The notes below the pieces were generated by a model. It saw nothing but the letters and a program-made list of their open reading frames with translations, was not told the origin of the DNA and searched no databases. The position numbers were made by a program, and so were the translations under genes. Below, one piece after another: positions 2,957 to 13,153 of a DNA stretch of 64,000 bases. The stretch is from the NCBI GenBank assembly GCA_017507005.1, contig JAFWBT010000031.1, forward strand, positions 1 to 64,000, given 5' to 3'. Positions within the stretch are counted from its first letter, which is position 1. The number at the start of each line of letters is the position of its first letter. The stretch comes from Clostridia bacterium. GTDB lineage: Bacteria; Bacillota; Clostridia; Christensenellales; Borkfalkiaceae.

Positions 2957-4255
2957 ATGGAAAATCAAACGAACGAAAAAGAACTCGTCGTGACGGAACA
3001 AGCGGCGCAAATACAACAAACGCCGCAGGAAGAACAGCCGTTGCAGACGTTGCCGACGGAAAACTCGGCAATGAAACGCTGTTTGGACGCCGTAAAGGGC
3101 TTTTTAATTAAGTATGAATTTGCATTGTTATTTATTGCCATTACGATAATGACGATGTTGGTGCGCTTTGCGTTGTTCGACGGCAGGTCGGGGGATTATA
3201 ACGGTTTTTTAAGCGAGTGGTTTAACACGATTAAGGCGGAAGGGCCGCTCAAAGCGTTGGGACACAAAATCGGAGACTACACGCCCGCGTATTTTTACAT
3301 ACTGACGATACTTACGTTTATTCCCGTCAGTTCGTTGGTTTCGATTAAATTCGTGTCTTGTATTTTCGACATCGTGCTGGCGATAGCCGTGTGCCTTTGC
3401 GTGAAAGAGCTGACGAAGAGCAAATGGAAGACGTTTGCGGCGTACGCTATCGTTTTATTGATGCCCAGCGTGTTTTTCAATAGCGGCGCGTGGGCGCAAT
3501 GCGATTCCATTTTCACGTCTTTCTGCATTTGGAGCTTGTATTTCTTATTAAAAAAGAAAAACGTTACCGCCGTGATTATGTACGGCATAGCGTTCGCTTT
3601 TAAATTGCAGGCAATATTTATGGCGCCGTTGTTTGCGGTGATGTGGTTTAAGGGGAAAATCCCTTTATGGTCGCCCTTGCTGGTGGTGGGGGTATACGTA
3701 TTGTTCTGCGTGCCCTCGTGGCTGTGCGGCAGAAGTCTTTGGTCGCTGCTCACGGTATATTTCGACCAAGCAGGCTCGTATCGTATGCTGACGCTGTTTG
3801 CGACGACGTTTGTGGCGTTGTTTGGGAAGGTGAGTATGAATTCCAACAGCCACCACGTCGATAGGGTATCAACAATGCTGATAATGCTCGCGTTGACGGT
3901 GACGATTTTGCTCATTTATCTGTGCGCGAGAAAGACGAAATGGAAGAGAGAAAGCGCGATAGACTTTGCATATTTGTTCTGTTTAATCGTGCCGTTTTTC
4001 CTGCCGCATATGCACGAACGGTATTTCTATCTTGCAACGCTCGTTTCTATCGTGTATTCGTTCTTGCACCCCAAGCGTATTTACGCGGCGGCGATTTCGG
4101 AATTTTGCGCGTTCTACGTCGTTTGCAATCATTTGTATACAATCAATTATCTGTCCTTGCAGATTGTCACTATGATTCAGGTAGCGAATATCGTTTTGTT
4201 GTTGCGCGATCTTTGGAAAGACTATATCGTAAACGGAGCAAACGAGAACGCATAA
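2957..4255 (+). CDS. GT-C-type membrane glycosyltransferase
   Basis: A 432-residue integral membrane protein with a short charged N-terminal tail (about 45 residues) followed by roughly ten hydrophobic segments. The pattern, with SGDY near the first extracellular loop, GDYTPAYFY and SGAWAQCDSIF, is that of polyprenyl-phosphate-sugar-dependent GT-C/mannosyltransferase-like enzymes. Start chosen at the ATG with GGAGG just upstream; the longer frame would begin inside the promoter. It heads an operon with a YfhO-family and a GtrA-family protein, which supports transfer of a lipid-linked sugar to a surface polymer. The donor and acceptor cannot be read from sequence. Confidence 0.8.
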   Translation: MENQTNEKELVVTEQAAQIQQTPQEEQPLQTLPTENSAMKRCLDAVKGFLIKYEFALLFIAITIMTMLVRFALFDGRSGDYNGFLSEWFNTIKAEGPLKALGHKIGDYTPAYFYILTILTFIPVSSLVSIKFVSCIFDIVLAIAVCLCVKELTKSKWKTFAAYAIVLLMPSVFFNSGAWAQCDSIFTSFCIWSLYFLLKKKNVTAVIMYGIAFAFKLQAIFMAPLFAVMWFKGKIPLWSPLLVVGVYVLFCVPSWLCGRSLWSLLTVYFDQAGSYRMLTLFATTFVALFGKVSMNSNSHHVDRVSTMLIMLALTVTILLIYLCARKTKWKRESAIDFAYLFCLIVPFFLPHMHERYFYLATLVSIVYSFLHPKRIYAAAISEFCAFYVVCNHLYTINYLSLQIVTMIQVANIVLLLRDLWKDYIVNGANENA

Positions 4256-7190: not shown

Positions 7191-7715
7191 ATGGAAGAAA
7201 CAAAGGAAAGACAAGAGGGCGCGGAAACGCCCGTAAAACAAACGAAAAAGCAACTCTTTTGGGAGATTTTCCGCTTTTTATTGGTGGGCGGAACGGCAAC
7301 TCTCGTCGATTATTTTGTGTTTTGGCTGTTTGACGGGCTGTTGTTGCCGCTAATCCCCGTGGCAGGCGGCTGGTGGAGTACGTTCTCGCTCGTCGTGGCG
7401 ACGGCGCTCGGCTTTTGCGTAGGGCTTGTCGTTAATTGGCTGCTTTCGGTGAGTTTCGTATTCAAAGACGTGAAGAACAAGGCAGAGGCAAGCTCGAAAA
7501 AATCCTTTATGGTGTTCACGATTATCGGTGTTATCGGGCTTGTAATTACCGAGGTGGGAATAGTACTGCTCGTGGCGATTTTGCCGGAGTTTTCGCTGTT
7601 TGGCGTGACGGAAATTCTCCATACGAGCTGGGCGAAATGGCTGGCGAAAGTGGTGATGACCTGCATTGTGCTCGTGTGGAATTACGTGGGCAGAAAACTG
7701 TTTATTTTCAAGTAA
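7191..7715 (+). CDS. GtrA-family membrane protein
   Basis: A 174-residue protein with four predicted membrane helices and the GtrA hallmarks FRFLLVGGTATLVDY near residue 25 and NWLLSVSFVFK in the middle. GtrA/GtcA proteins are thought to flip undecaprenyl-phosphate-sugar across the membrane for YfhO/CsbB-type glycosylation. It follows the YfhO gene by 18 bases with AAAGGAG at the right distance, and the operon ends in a strong terminator. Confidence 0.88.
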   Translation: MEETKERQEGAETPVKQTKKQLFWEIFRFLLVGGTATLVDYFVFWLFDGLLLPLIPVAGGWWSTFSLVVATALGFCVGLVVNWLLSVSFVFKDVKNKAEASSKKSFMVFTIIGVIGLVITEVGIVLLVAILPEFSLFGVTEILHTSWAKWLAKVVMTCIVLVWNYVGRKLFIFK

Positions 7716-7737
7716 AAAAGTGTCTAAATGAGGCGGG

Positions 7738-7774
7738 TTTTCGGCGGAAGAAATTCCGCCGAAAAAATTTTTTT
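7738..7774 (+). terminator. Terminator of the surface-glycosylation operon
   Basis: A perfect hairpin, TTTCGGCGGAA paired with TTCCGCCGAAA, is followed by a seven-base T run. Confidence 0.88.
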
Positions 7775-7795
7775 AAACTTTTTTTCAAAAAGGTA

Positions 7796-7824
7796 TTGAA
7801 ATTTAGAAAATTGTGTTGTATAAT
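7796..7824 (+). promoter_or_regulatory. Promoter of the candidate small RNA
   Basis: TTGAAA (7796-7801), 17 bp spacer, perfect TATAAT (7819-7824). No credible coding region follows before the terminator at 7906-7937. Confidence 0.75.
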
Positions 7825-7830
7825 GGTATC

Positions 7831-7937
7831 GCAAGTGGGGCTTGTACCTGAAAAGGTTTTTGAAAATGGACTACAAGATGTGTTAAACTCCTTTTTTGAT
7901 GTTGGAAAGAACCGTGGCTTTTGTCGCGGTTCTTTCT
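7831..7937 (+). ncRNA. Candidate small structured RNA of about 107 nt
   Basis: This segment lies between a good promoter and a clear terminator hairpin (AAAGAACCG/CGGTTCTTT, 7906-7935). A helix CTTGTA (7841-7846) with TACAAG (7872-7877) can enclose a small ACCT-GAAA-AGGT tetraloop hairpin. No conserved family (6S, SRP, tmRNA, RNase P or a common riboswitch) was recognised. The only reading frame is six codons, starting at 7866. A separate strong promoter for pflA lies further down, so this looks like a stand-alone transcript, though attenuation of read-through is possible. Confidence 0.55.
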
Positions 7938-8071
7938 AATATTCGTCTAAAATTCATAGGCTTTGAAAGGAGAAAGGGCAAAAAAAGAGAAATTCGGTAA
8001 AAAAGGAAACGCTATCCTATCGTAAAGCGTGATAAAAACGCAAAAAGATGAAAAAAATAATAGGCAAAGGC

Positions 8072-8100
8072 TTGACAAACGCTCGCGCGGCTGTTATAAT
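8072..8100 (+). promoter_or_regulatory. Promoter of pflA
   Basis: Perfect TTGACA (8072-8077) and TATAAT (8095-8100) with a 17 bp spacer. The roughly 85-base leader before pflA is GC-rich and can fold through CGCGCGCG stretches. Confidence 0.88.
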
Positions 8101-8191
8101 AGTAAGCGTGAGAACAAAGGGGCGTCACGGGGACTCGTGCGCGCTATTTTTTTAGGATACGCGCGCGTGAACGTACATAGGAGGAAAAGAG

Positions 8192-8923
8192 TTGGTTGGA
8201 CGTATTCATTCATTCGAATCTTTCGGTACGGTAGACGGGCCTGGTATTCGTTTCGTTCTGTTTTTGCAAGGCTGTCCGTTGCGCTGTCAATATTGCCACA
8301 ATCCCGACACTTGGGGTAGCGGCGGTACGGAATACAGCGTGGAAGAAGTGGCGGAGCGCGCGCTGAAATATCGTAATTATTTTGGCGATAAGGGCGGCGT
8401 TACGGCTACGGGCGGCGAACCGCTGTTGCAAATCGATTTCGTAATCGAATTGTTCTCGCTGTTAAAAAGCAAGGGCGTGCATACCTGCGTGGATACTTCG
8501 GGGATTATGTTCCATCCCGACGATCCTGCGAGCGTGGAAAAGCATAAAAAGCTGATTGAGGTCACCGATTTGTTCCTGCTCGATATCAAGCATATCGACG
8601 ACGAGGCTTGTAAAAAGCTGACGGGGCAGAGCAATCGTAACACGTTGGCGTTTGCGAAATTTTTGAGCGAACACGGCAAAAAGATGTGGATTCGGCAGGT
8701 GCTTGTGCCTGGGCTTACCGACGGGGAAGATTCTCTCCTTGAAACGCGCGCGTTTATCGATACGCTGGCGACGGTGGAAAAGGTGGAGGTGCTCCCGTAT
8801 CATTCCATGGGCGTCGTGAAATATGAAAAGCTGGGCTTGGAATATCCCTTAAAGGACGTGGTTGCGCCGACGAAAGAGCGTGTGCAGGGCGCGAAAAAGA
8901 TACTAAACGAGGGTAGAGCGTAA
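8192..8923 (+). CDS. pflA: Pyruvate formate-lyase activating enzyme (radical SAM)
   Basis: A 243-residue radical-SAM enzyme that installs the glycyl radical on pyruvate formate-lyase, using a 4Fe-4S cluster and S-adenosylmethionine. The cluster-binding CxxxCxxC is at residues 28, 32 and 35 (GCPLRCQYCHN). TVDGPGIRFV before it and ATGGEPLLQ after it are typical. The start is TTG, chosen because AGGAGG lies 7 bases upstream and the family signature begins at once. The next gene overlaps its stop by one base (TAATG). The protein has the family's usual length and sits beside its substrate. Confidence 0.96.
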   Translation: MVGRIHSFESFGTVDGPGIRFVLFLQGCPLRCQYCHNPDTWGSGGTEYSVEEVAERALKYRNYFGDKGGVTATGGEPLLQIDFVIELFSLLKSKGVHTCVDTSGIMFHPDDPASVEKHKKLIEVTDLFLLDIKHIDDEACKKLTGQSNRNTLAFAKFLSEHGKKMWIRQVLVPGLTDGEDSLLETRAFIDTLATVEKVEVLPYHSMGVVKYEKLGLEYPLKDVVAPTKERVQGAKKILNEGRA

Positions 8924-9243
8924 TGAACGAAAAGGACTATAAAGAGCATTTACAAGGACTTTGCTGTGTAGAAATTAGCGGCGAGTCCTGCGCGAATTGT
9001 TTGACGCTGATGCCGATATTAAAAGAGCTTTGCGACGCGCGCGGCGATATTCGTTTGGTGCACGTGGAGGCAGACTATTCGACGCTGGCTTTGATGGAGG
9101 CGTGGGAAGTGGAAAAAGTGCCTACCATACTGCTCGTAGAGGACGGAGAAATTTTTGCCCGTTGTAGCGGTTTTCAGCCTGAGGAAATTTTAGAGCTGTG
9201 GCTGGACGCGAAGATTGAGGAAAGAAGAGCCGCGAAAAACTAA
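8923..9243 (+). CDS. Thioredoxin-like protein with CANC active site
   Basis: A 106-residue single-domain thioredoxin-fold protein with a redox pair C23-A-N-C26 in place of the usual CGPC. The cis-proline region reads KVPTILLVEDGE, followed by the last strand and helix. A further Cys pair is at 14-15. It is translationally coupled to pflA and precedes pflB, so it may keep the activase or the lyase Cys pair reduced, or act in repair. That role is inference from position only. CANC is unusual but compatible with a disulfide reductase. Confidence 0.82.
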   Translation: MNEKDYKEHLQGLCCVEISGESCANCLTLMPILKELCDARGDIRLVHVEADYSTLALMEAWEVEKVPTILLVEDGEIFARCSGFQPEEILELWLDAKIEERRAAKN

Positions 9244-9342
9244 AGACGGAAATCGTCAAGTTTTTGAAACGTTTTTGATTAAACGGATAGGAAACTTGTT
9301 GATATATAAAAGAATAAAATTATTATAACAGGAGTTACTGAT

Positions 9343-11376
9343 ATGATGCAATACAAAGGTTGGGAAGGATTTGTTCCCGGTAAATGGTGCGACGACGAAG
9401 TAAACGTACGCGATTTCATTCAGCGTAACTACACGCCGTATGATGGCGATGCAGAATTCCTTGCTCCCGCAACGGAAGCAACGAAAAAGCTGTGGGATAT
9501 CGTTTGCGATTTGACCAAGAAAGAGATCGCTGCTGGCGGCGTTCTCAACGCGGATACGAAAATCGTTTCCACGCTTACCTCGCACGGCGCAGGCTATTTG
9601 GATAAAGATCTTGAAAAGATCGTTGGTCTTCAGACGGACGAGCCTTTCAAGCGCGCTTTGCAGCCTTTCGGCGGTATTCGTATGTCCGAAGGCGCATTGA
9701 ATATGTACGGCTATGAGATTGATCCTCAGGTAAAGGAAATCTTCACGAAATACCGTAAAACGCACAACGAAGGCGTGTTCGATGCGTATACGCCTGAAAT
9801 GAGAGCGGCTCGTTCCGCACACATCTTGACGGGTCTTCCCGACGCTTACGGCCGTGGCCGTATCATCGGCGACTATCGTCGTGTGGCTCTGTATGGTGTT
9901 GACTACCTCATCAGAAAGAAGGAAGAAGATAAACTCGCTATCAACGGCGATATGACCCCTGAAAAGGTTAGAAACCGCGAAGAAATCGCTGACCAAGTAA
10001 AAGCGTTGAAGGCTTTGAAAGAAATGGCTGCTATCTATGGTTGCGACATTTCCAAGCCCGCAGAAACCGCTCAGCAGGCTATTCAGGCGTTGTACTTTGG
10101 TTATTTGGCAGCTGTTAAAGATCAGAACGGCGCGGCTATGTCCATCGGTAGAAACACGACGTTCTTGGATATCTATATCCAGCGTGACTTGGATAAGGGC
10201 TTGATCACCGAAGAACAGGCTCAGGAATTTATCGATCATTTCATCATGAAGCTTCGTATCGTGAAGTTCATGAGAACGAAAGAATACAACGAATTGTTCT
10301 CGGGCGACCCCACGTGGGTTACCGAATCGATTGGCGGTATGGGTGTTGACGGCAGATCGCTCGTTACCAAGACGGCGTTCCGTGTTCTGCACACGCTCGA
10401 CAACCTCGGTCCCGCTCCCGAACCCAACCTCACCGTTCTTTGGTCGAAGAGATTGCCTGCAAACTTCAAGAAGTTCTGTGCGGACATCTCCATCCGTACG
10501 TCTTCCATCCAGTATGAAAGCGACGAATTGATGAGAGCGGAAATGGGCGACGACTATGCAATCGCTTGCTGCGTAAGCTGTATGAAGGTTGGTAAAGATA
10601 TGCAGTTCTTCGGCGCAAGAGCAAACCTTGCTAAGTGCTTGTTGTACGCTATCAACGGCGGTAAAGACGAGCTGATGAAGGATAAGGTTACGGGCAAACC
10701 TATGCAGGTATCCCCCGAATTCGTGCCTATCTACGGCGACGGCGCGCTCAACTATGACGAAGTTTGCCAGAAGTTTGACAATATGATGACGTGGTTGGCT
10801 GATTTGTACGTGAACACGCTCAACCTCATCCACTATATGCACGATAAGTACAGCTATGAAGCTTTGGAAATGGTTTTGCACGATACGAACGTACGTCGTT
10901 TCTTCGCTACGGGTATCGCTGGTCTTTCCTGCGCGGCTGACTCGTTGTCTGCTATCAAGTACGCAACGGTATATCCTATTCGTAACGAAGACGGTATCGT
11001 AGTAGATTACAAGATCGAAGGCGATTATCCTAAGTACGGTAACAACGACGACAGAGCAGACGAAATCGCTGTATGGATCGTTAAGACCTTCATGAAGAAG
11101 GTTAAGAGCCACTACACCTATCGTGACAGCGTTCCTACGACGTCTATCCTTACGATTACGTCCAACGTTGTATACGGTAAGAAGACGGGTAACACGCCTG
11201 ACGGTAGACGTGGCGGTACGCCTTTGGCTCCCGGTGCTAACCCTATGCACGGCAGAGACGCAAACGGCGCGTTGGCATCCCTTGAATCGGTTGCGAAGAT
11301 TCCTTACGAATATTCGAGAGACGGTATTTCCAACACCTTCTCGATTACGCCCGGTTCGCTTGGTAAAGAAGACTAA
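9343..11376 (+). CDS. pflB: Pyruvate formate-lyase, catalytic core lacking the glycyl-radical domain
   Basis: A 677-residue protein that aligns by eye with formate-lyase from its N-terminus to the conserved DGISNTFSI...GK segment. It contains the catalytic Cys pair C409-C410 (AIACCVS; C418-C419 in E. coli). The enzyme converts pyruvate and CoA to acetyl-CoA and formate. It stops at GKED, where usual PflB (about 755-760 residues) goes on into the radical domain. That domain is encoded by the next gene, after 96 bases. The stop is clean and the next gene has its own ribosome site, so this is a true split and not a frameshift. Two adjacent ATGs are possible starts. Confidence 0.95.
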
Positions 11377-11410
11377 TCATAGTCTTGGATAAAATTAAAA
11401 TTCTCAGCTA

Positions 11411-11430
11411 CGCCCGATTTCTATCGGGCG
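11411..11430 (+). promoter_or_regulatory. Intercistronic hairpin between the two pfl parts
   Basis: Perfect 8-bp inverted repeat CGCCCGAT / ATCGGGCG with a TTCT loop, not followed by a T run, so not a terminator. It lies 43 bases before the start of the radical-domain gene and could protect or process the mRNA and so set the ratio of the two polypeptides. Confidence 0.6.
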
Positions 11431-11472
11431 AGGTTGCGGAAAATACGATAAAAAAAATAAGGAGATAATATT

Positions 11473-11706
11473 ATGTCGAACAGAGTAGATAATTTGGTTC
11501 AGATGTTGGATACCTACGTTAGCGACGGCGGTTTCCACCTCAACGTAAACGTATTCAATCGTGAAACTCTTCTGGACGCGCAGGCGCATCCTGAAAAGTA
11601 TCCTCAGCTCACCATCCGTGTTTCCGGTTATGCAGTTAACTTCATCAAACTGACGAAGGAACAGCAGGATGACGTTATTTCCAGAACGATTCACGAATCC
11701 ATGTAA
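11473..11706 (+). CDS. Separate glycyl-radical domain of pyruvate formate-lyase
   Basis: A 77-residue protein that is essentially the last part of PflB. It contains [14 protein letters not shown], then [12 protein letters not shown] with the radical-bearing glycine at G52, and ends [11 protein letters not shown] like full-length enzymes. AAGGAGAT precedes the ATG. Because the preceding lyase lacks this domain, this small protein must dock in trans for activity, as YfiD/GrcA does when it repairs a cleaved lyase in E. coli. Unlike GrcA it is the neighbour of a core that has no radical domain of its own. The operon ends in a terminator. Confidence 0.95.
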
Positions 11707-11765
11707 TCGGTTTACGGTTCGGATTTTGATATTTGTGAAATTTGGAAATATAGTGTTATGAAAAA

Positions 11766-11798
11766 TACTGCCGCCGCATAAAACCGACGGCAGTTTTT
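11766..11798 (+). terminator. Terminator of the formate-lyase operon
   Basis: CTGCCG and CGGCAG form a stem around a 14-base loop, followed by five T. Confidence 0.75.
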
Positions 11799-11881
11799 CC
11801 TTTTATGCAAGAAATTGCGTAAGACTTGCGTGAGAACTTGCTTGATTGCGCAAGGGATTGCGTAGTTGTTTTGGGGGCGTT

Positions 11882-13153
11882 ATGAAAAAATCGTTTAAAA
11901 TGTTGGCGGCATTGTTTGCCGTGTGTTTTGGTTTGAGCGCGGCGTCTTGCGCGACGGCGGAACAGGCTTTGAGCGAGCTGTTGCAGGCTATGAGCAGCGT
12001 AAGTGCTAGCGAATCGTGCGTTTTATTGCCCGATTCTTTATCTGATTCTTTGTCCGATTCGCTCTCGTCTATATCGTCGGAAGAAACGGTATCGTCGGCG
12101 GATTCGGGGGAAACCTTGGATTCTGTGGATTCGTCTGCGGATTCTTCCGTGGTCGAAGATATTGTTACGGAATCGCTGAGTATTCATTTTTTAGAGCTTG
12201 GCAATAAATACACAGGAGATTGCACGCTGATTGACGTGGGAGACACGGAAGTGTTGATTGACGCAGGCTCGCGTAAAGGCTCGGCGGCGACGATCAACGC
12301 GTATTTGCAGGAATATTGCGAGGACGGCGTTTTGGAATACGTCATTGCGACGCACGCCGACCAAGACCATATCGCAGGTTTTGTTGGGAACAGCGGAAAG
12401 CCGTTGCGGACGGGCGTGCTGTATCAATATTCCGTTGAAACGCTGATTCAATTCCCTTTGACGAATAAGAGCGAACTGACGGCGAGTGGGAATTCTTCGC
12501 TGTACGGGGAGTACGTGACGGCGGTGGAATATGCGAAAGAGCAAGGCACGGCGGTGTATACGGCGCTCCAATGTTATAATAACGAAAACGGCGGCGCGCG
12601 GACGTATACGCTGGGCGACGGCGTGACAATGCAGTTTTTATATCAGCGCTATTACGAGGAAACGACGAGCGACGAGAACGATTATTCGGTGTGTATGCTG
12701 TTAACGCAGGGAGAGAATAATTATCTGTTCACGGGTGATTTGGAAACGAAGGGGGAAGCGTCGTTAGTGGAAAACAACGATTTGCCGCAATGCGTTTTGT
12801 ATAAAGGCGGTCACCACGGCAGCCCGACGTCCTCGACAGAGGCTTTGCTGTCTGTAATACAGCCGCAAATCGTTTGTGTGTGCTGTTGTTGCGGCAGCGA
12901 CGAATACACCGATAACGTAGCGAATATGTTTCCCTCGCAGGCGTTTGTCGACCGCGTTGCACCGTATACGGATAAAGTGTACGTGACGACGATTGTGGCG
13001 GATAACGACGAGGGGTACGAATCTCTGAACGGCAATATCGTCGTTTGGTCGGACGGCTCGGAAGTGACGGTGCGCGGCTCGAATAACGATACGCTGTTTA
13101 AGGACACGGAGTGGTTTAAAAACAACCGTTTGTTGCCGCCTTCGTGGGAGTAA
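11882..13153 (+). CDS. Secreted lipoprotein with ComEC-like metallo-beta-lactamase fold
   Basis: About 423 residues. A Lys-rich signal peptide is followed by a lipobox-like AASC (Cys 23, slightly off consensus), then a Ser/Asp/Glu-rich linker with DSLSDSLSDSLS repeats. An MBL-fold hydrolase domain follows: THADQDHIAG metal-binding motif, GDLETKGEASL, and KGGHHGS. This resembles the extracellular MBL domain of ComEC/Rec2 and free-standing MBL nucleases or phosphodiesterases. It probably acts at the outer face of the membrane on nucleic acid or a phosphodiester, but the substrate is not known. The ATG at 11882 is preferred to an upstream in-frame start because the signal peptide begins there. 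Confidence 0.8.
   Translation: MKKSFKMLAALFAVCFGLSAASCATAEQALSELLQAMSSVSASESCVLLPDSLSDSLSDSLSSISSEETVSSADSGETLDSVDSSADSSVVEDIVTESLSIHFLELGNKYTGDCTLIDVGDTEVLIDAGSRKGSAATINAYLQEYCEDGVLEYVIATHADQDHIAGFVGNSGKPLRTGVLYQYSVETLIQFPLTNKSELTASGNSSLYGEYVTAVEYAKEQGTAVYTALQCYNNENGGARTYTLGDGVTMQFLYQRYYEETTSDENDYSVCMLLTQGENNYLFTGDLETKGEASLVENNDLPQCVLYKGGHHGSPTSSTEALLSVIQPQIVCVCCCCGSDEYTDNVANMFPSQAFVDRVAPYTDKVYVTTIVADNDEGYESLNGNIVVWSDGSEVTVRGSNNDTLFKDTEWFKNNRLLPPSWE

Follow-up and report, generated by a model that had tools for sequence, protein, structure and literature searches.

Pyruvate formate-lyase (PFL) is one of the main ways in which many anaerobes turn pyruvate into acetyl-CoA and formate, and oxygen destroys its radical part. 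E. coli PflB (formate C-acetyltransferase; PDB 1qhm and 2pfl) is a single chain. The full-length enzyme is repaired in E. coli by GrcA, or YfiD, a protein whose N-terminal half is disordered. In one study, a version of E. coli PFL cut at 695 reached wild-type activity after activation when it was paired with YfiD constructs, although activation of the PFL-695/YfiD complex is 32-fold below that of PFL cut at 733 and YfiD binding to PFL cut at 695 was not detectable (PMC8683613). This poor binding and activation implies that a split enzyme could be a poor one unless its contacts are tighter.

The 64,000-nucleotide stretch of DNA analysed here (the window) also has the Cys pair, radical glycine loop and PflA partner of E. 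coli PflB, but as two genes with the cut after LGKED. As judged from sequence, this pair probably makes up a complete pyruvate formate-lyase that consists of two chains; we put the probability of this reading at about 0.88.

PFL core and glycyl-radical domain are encoded by separate genes

The gene order in the window is pflA, a thioredoxin-like gene, the PFL core and the radical chain (Table 1). The core scores 1078.3 bits against the TIGR01255 cut-off of 994.2, with its best stretch at model positions 2-662 of 744, and carries the adjacent catalytic cysteines C409/C410 before ending in SLGKED. Its predicted model matches 1qhm and 2pfl with 62% identity over 593 and 652 residues. In the shorter chain the radical glycine is G52 within RVSGYA, which aligns with E. 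coli G734. Because the split point lies between model positions 662 and 665, no part of PFL is missing. A sequence-only reading of this DNA had described a 677-residue core ending in LGKED with the Cys pair, a 77-residue chain with G52 lying 96 bases further on, and a cut before the radical domain; all of this holds.

Table 1. Features of the split pfl cluster in the window
Feature	Position	Strand	Details
Sigma-70-like promoter TTGACA-17-TATAAT ahead of pflA	8072..8100	+	consensus scan, 12/12 matches
pflA, radical-SAM activase of pyruvate formate-lyase	8192..8923	+	TIGR02493 304.3 bits, cut-off 231.75
Thioredoxin-like protein, CANC motif	8923..9243	+	Pfam PF00085 38.7 bits
PFL core chain gene	9343-11376	+	677 aa, TIGR01255 match
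Stem-loop between the two genes, without U-tract after it	11401..11441	+	RNA fold -22.7 kcal/mol
Ribosome-binding site of radical chain (AAGGAGATAATATT)	11459..11472	+	sequence, before ATG
Glycyl-radical chain gene	11473-11706	+	77 aa, TIGR01255 positions 665-744
Terminator-like stem 3′ of radical gene	11767..11794	.	listed on - strand; scan and sequence

C409/C410 are invariant across 33 aligned cores and G52 across 13 aligned radical chains, and the loop R[VI]SGYA is present in all 129 distinct split loci. The cysteines and the radical loop are not on the same chain here, being encoded by two genes with four in-frame stops between them, counting the core's own. Absence of the single-chain layout counts against an ordinary PflB and not against function as a PFL.

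Antisense to the core lies a 664-aa open frame (9256-11250, minus strand), which codon usage most likely explains. The pfl cluster is directly followed by a Ser-rich protein with a metallo-beta-lactamase-type domain (11846-13153; PF00753, 43.1 bits).

The intergenic gap holds a putative ribosome site and a stem-loop

The gap between the two window genes, 96 bases, is a multiple of three, and the genes share a frame. Many relatives have gaps whose length is not divisible by three, with distances from -38 to 449 bases. Given the four in-frame stops and these out-of-frame gaps, no single indel or simple read-through joins the two parts. The separate ribosome site that had been proposed for the radical gene is indeed present before its ATG, and is a strong one (Table 1). 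More broadly, 126 of 129 distinct split loci have a Shine-Dalgarno-like pentamer 3-18 bases 5′ of the start of the radical gene, a count taken without a shuffle control.

The stem-loop in the window gap has a dinucleotide-shuffle z of -2.76. Among the 20 of 22 genus gaps put to this test (L010, over the length limit, and L087 were left out), z is at most -2.7 in 12 and at most -2 in 14, and the hairpin is not unusual in the other 6; the L087 gap is without structure. The stem recurs even though the gap sequences differ. As a guess, this hairpin could set different amounts of core and radical messages. A scan of 46 gaps of at least 200 bases and 90 shorter ones gave no case of the gap hairpin as an intrinsic terminator, and a separate scan of the region listed no terminator in the window gap. 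Separate promoters within the 46 long gaps numbered 15 against 10.9 expected from shuffles, which is not informative, and an Rfam search of 7600-12000 returned nothing at gathering score.

The signals flanking the cluster are similarly unremarkable in number. Promoter-like sites in the region number 8 against 5.6 expected; because such sites are about as common in shuffled sequence, the consensus promoter ahead of pflA is not evidence of function. Terminator-like sites (5 against 4.6 expected) are likewise about as common in shuffled sequence, and the repeat at 11767..11794 is followed by a TTTTT-like sequence on the plus strand too.

The split is conserved in the genus

Looking for the same split in relatives, as the sequence-only reading had proposed, we found that 51 of 57 genus genomes encode a stand-alone radical chain, with frames of 78-113 aa. 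The genomes without it (G020, G022, G024, G026, G042 and G047) are 67-84% complete. TIGR01255 matches exceed the cut-off in 44 of the 57, none of them in one uninterrupted frame: core rows end at model position 662-675 or reach 744 only through 1-2 stops. In this search the tool joined over-cut-off radical pieces to their in-frame neighbours, and the same pieces are short frames in the radical-chain search. The remaining 13 genomes gave fragments, other enzymes or nothing.

Codon comparisons indicate purifying selection on both genes. Over the final 433 core codons, dN/dS is 0.04-0.13 in 8 comparisons and saturated in 3, and for the radical chain it is 0-0.12 in 11; these 11 comparisons with relatives represent 9 distinct loci, as L101/L188 and L116/L189 lie on the same contigs.

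Split genes occur in two layouts beyond the genus

To describe split loci more widely, we used the best 80 of 584 matches from a scan with the radical-chain alignment (the named loci), in which counts are not frequencies. Of these best 80 of 584, 74 have a core immediately 5′ of the radical gene, 5 show a radical gene but no core within the fetched stretch, and 1, from Enterococcus casseliflavus, is fused. Named matches include Ruminococcus albus KH2T6, R. bicirculans 80/3, R. flavefaciens, Massilimicrobiota, Erysipelotrichaceae and Anaeroplasmataceae; a few matching bins are labelled Melainabacteria or Muribaculaceae and may be misbinned. By these matches, the split architecture is widespread in Bacillota and Mycoplasmatota bins, with a few Melainabacteria-labelled ones. 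The split is thus not unique to this locus: besides its spread among relatives, a family model exists (NF038360) and two PDB chains resemble split cores.

An LG junction is common to all 73 rescored split loci (of 74, among the best 80 of 584), and the core ends 2-6 residues past it in 29 and 14-40 residues past it in 44. Type A, the window's layout, consists of pflA, usually a thioredoxin-like gene, a core ending 2-6 residues past LG, and the radical chain, with a median gap of 44 (63 distinct loci). Type B cores continue for 14-40 residues after the junction, frequently with VFxGD, and the median gap is 231 (65 loci). Across the 74 named split loci (best 80 of 584), pflA precedes the pair in 25 and follows it in 24, and the remainder have no pflA within the stretch examined. 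Of the 25 in which pflA comes first, 21 include the thioredoxin-like gene, whereas L113, L118, L119 and L147 do not (best 80 of 584). None of 7 fused relatives has this gene, their pflA lying directly against the fused gene, and it was not found among the named loci with pflA downstream either (best 80 of 584).

Type B core tails (L141, L158, L162, L163, L167 and others) sometimes contain a Cys-rich piece and PTLFEGLD. At L194, a 77-aa ORF between core and radical gene (3566-3799) starts like a radical chain (QVDDIVAMLDGF..GGHMNVDV), has no glycine loop and ends in a stretch resembling a type B tail (SCQAPTLLEGMDD); it is perhaps a decayed or regulatory copy.

No full-length PFL1 was found in most split-pfl genomes checked

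In the source genome, an assembly of 33 contigs that is 71% complete, we found no full-length PFL1, although one may lie in the missing part. A full-length pflB elsewhere, which the sequence-only reading had named as a threat to its proposal, did not turn up; the only other match is PFL2-type, on contig C9 (TIGR01774, 798.4 bits). That contig (L004 32-685, 1468-3999 and 4293-5078) carries the PFL2-type enzyme, its own activase and a nearby Cys-rich ORF that looks like a ferredoxin by reading of the letters. The absence of a continuous PFL1 both from the genus search and from this 71% complete genome supports a two-chain complex as the probable active form, as had been suggested.

Across the class, the GrcA3 cut-off was passed by 20 of 391 genomes in a spread sample, each with a stand-alone frame of 78-106 aa, and most of the listed matches under the cut-off sit in long frames, that is, in fused enzymes. 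Together with R. albus, R. bicirculans, Massilimicrobiota An134 and Ruminococcus YE71, which were not scored with the GrcA3 model, these make up 24 split-pfl genomes. PFL1 is solely split in 20 of the 24, one of which (G548) has a stop inside the core; two (G694 and G595) have both split and full-length PFL1, and two (G499 and G701) have contig-cut PFL1 fragments only. R. bicirculans 80/3, for example, has the split gene and no full-length PFL1 that we could find. With no full-length PFL1 in 22 of 24 genomes, two of them fragmentary, an obligate second chain is the best reading.

Some genomes carry an additional radical gene away from the core. Among the best 80 of 584 matches, unlinked radical-chain genes occur at L099, L108, L110, L137 and L143, and all five such genomes also carry a linked split pfl. 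Linked and unlinked chains are identical at 66-70 of their last 70 residues. No other observation hints as clearly that the small chain works in trans; the copies may also stem from recent duplication without a trans role.

Split and fused forms interchange within one family

Fused forms occur within the same family as split ones. In trees built on the core end plus the radical chain (a quick tree of 79 rows and a careful tree of 45), split rows form one clade with fused rows nested inside, with support of 90 (quick) and 96/89 (careful); the bootstrap is not fully settled and many type A forks are open. The minimum number of changes between split and fused is 7, or 6-7 over bootstraps, and well-supported branches force 4 and 3. 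The nesting of fused relatives among split ones indicates that the two parts evolve as one unit. A single fission followed by re-fusions may explain this pattern, as may several fissions. The nine nested fused genes listed all keep the ordinary junction length, which speaks somewhat against repeated re-fusion. The trees thus suggest that lineages switch repeatedly between split and fused forms, with the direction either way.

A probable two-chain enzyme and its alternatives

By analogy with E. coli PFL, the 677-residue core would carry the substrate and CoA pocket together with Cys409/Cys410, and the 77-residue chain would give the last strand, the Gly52 radical loop and the C-terminal helix. 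The chains would assemble, PflA of the same cluster would then put the radical on Gly52, and the activated complex would cleave pyruvate with CoA to acetyl-CoA and formate. Less certainly, the split might let an oxygen-broken small chain be swapped without remaking the core.

Several other explanations were weighed against this two-chain reading. An assembly error, frameshift or decaying pseudogene might be suspected from a 33-contig, 71% complete assembly and from the stop inside the core of relative G548; its chances are negligible when the chain is present in 51 of 57 genus genomes, 74 named loci (best 80 of 584) are split, both genes appear to be under purifying selection and the radical gene has its own start and ribosome site. 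We rejected a frameshift or assembly error on the conserved split, across genus and named loci, and on this selection. The shared frame of the window genes, and relatives with a single in-frame stop (L190, L191, L192 and L202), would suit programmed read-through or frameshifting into a joined chain. Such joining is highly improbable, however, with four in-frame stops in the window, gaps from -38 to 449 bases that are out of frame in many relatives, and a ribosome site preceding the second ATG. Nor is an indel joining the frames, the other objection that the sequence-only reading had raised against itself, the case here, given the same stops and out-of-frame gaps. The 77-aa protein might also be a GrcA/YfiD-type spare part that repairs oxygen-cut full-length PFL, with the short core as a by-product; NCBIfam indeed calls the family autonomous glycyl radical cofactor GrcA3, and 2 of 24 split-pfl genomes also have full-length PFL1. 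We consider this unlikely, because the genus search showed no continuous PFL1 (44 of 57 genomes with an over-cut-off match), 20 of 24 further split-pfl genomes showed no full-length PFL1 or, in the case of G694 and G595, did so only beside a split one, and the N-terminal half of YfiD is absent from the chain.

The idea, raised by the sequence-only reading, that damaged radical chains are consumables renewed on an unchanged core adds to the two-chain reading rather than competing with it. This is a possibility that we take seriously while holding the odds to be somewhat against it. In its favour, a linked, near-identical copy accompanies the unlinked radical gene in all five genomes that carry one (best 80 of 584), a ribosome-site-like pentamer precedes the radical gene in 126 of 129 distinct split loci, the gap stem-loop (z at most -2 in 14 of 20 genus gaps) could set different message amounts, the thioredoxin-like gene is seen with split forms only, and two-part E. 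coli PFL is reported to work in vitro (PMC8683613). On the other side, 6 of 20 genus gaps fold in no unusual way, 4 of 25 split loci (best 80 of 584) lack the thioredoxin-like gene, which was also not found in the pflA-downstream layout, and fused forms recur in the same family.

More broadly still, a large group of gut bacteria might use a renewable radical subunit, made in excess, sometimes from a second gene, and swapped on a long-lived core with a thioredoxin-like helper, in lineages that move between split and fused. We regard this wider proposal as doubtful. If it were true, the excess small chain would come via its own ribosome site and a hairpin-stabilised message, and GrcA-type spare parts of facultative anaerobes would be a reduced version of a design that is normal here. 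With a natural, heritable two-chain PFL in culturable species such as R. albus and R. bicirculans, exchange of the radical domain could be tested directly. Our findings also suggest that many proteins annotated as "autonomous glycyl radical cofactor GrcA3" are obligate parts of an enzyme instead of repair factors, and that a truncated-looking PFL can be a complete enzyme.

Comparison with known systems

We recognised no description of a natural split PFL in the literature, within partial coverage that leaves preprints and most subscription journals outside. What is new here is the distribution, the repeated switching between split and fused forms, the thioredoxin-like neighbour of split forms and the intergenic hairpin. 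The two-chain PFL itself, very probably a true two-chain enzyme, is new as an interpreted variant of a family that NCBI has already named and that has perhaps already been solved. The nearest solved sequence to the window core is PDB 38la_A ("Formate acetyltransferase", 687 residues; E-value 0), which likewise ends in LGKED. Among the tree rows, those most similar to 38la_A are split (78% to L140, against 74% for the best fused row). A second entry, 38lb_A ("Formate acetyltransferase", 739 residues), runs past LGK with a tail. From their sequences both look like split PFL cores, and 38la could be a truncated construct; a radical-chain sequence search matched neither 38lb_A itself nor any radical-domain chain from 38la or 38lb.

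Class II ribonucleotide reductase is not known to be a glycyl radical enzyme. In Pseudomonas aeruginosa, this radical enzyme is reported to be expressed as a split protein (PMC4520616); both the enzyme and the cut differ from those of split PFL. GrcA/YfiD (TIGR04365) has the radical-loop domain in common with the window chain, which scores 96.1 bits against that model's cut-off of 170 and matches positions 62-126 of 126; the YfiD N-terminal half of about 60 residues, disordered in that repair protein, is absent from the 77-aa chain.

The best family for the window chain is GrcA3 (NCBIfam NF038360), at 156.2 bits, 1.8 below the cut-off of 158. Cores beside over-cut-off GrcA3 members mostly have a post-junction tail, whereas the window core has none. 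The name "autonomous cofactor" implies a spare part, but the full-length PFL1 that such a part would repair was not found in most genomes checked, and the 20 class-sample loci over the cut-off all sit behind a PFL core, as the window chain does.
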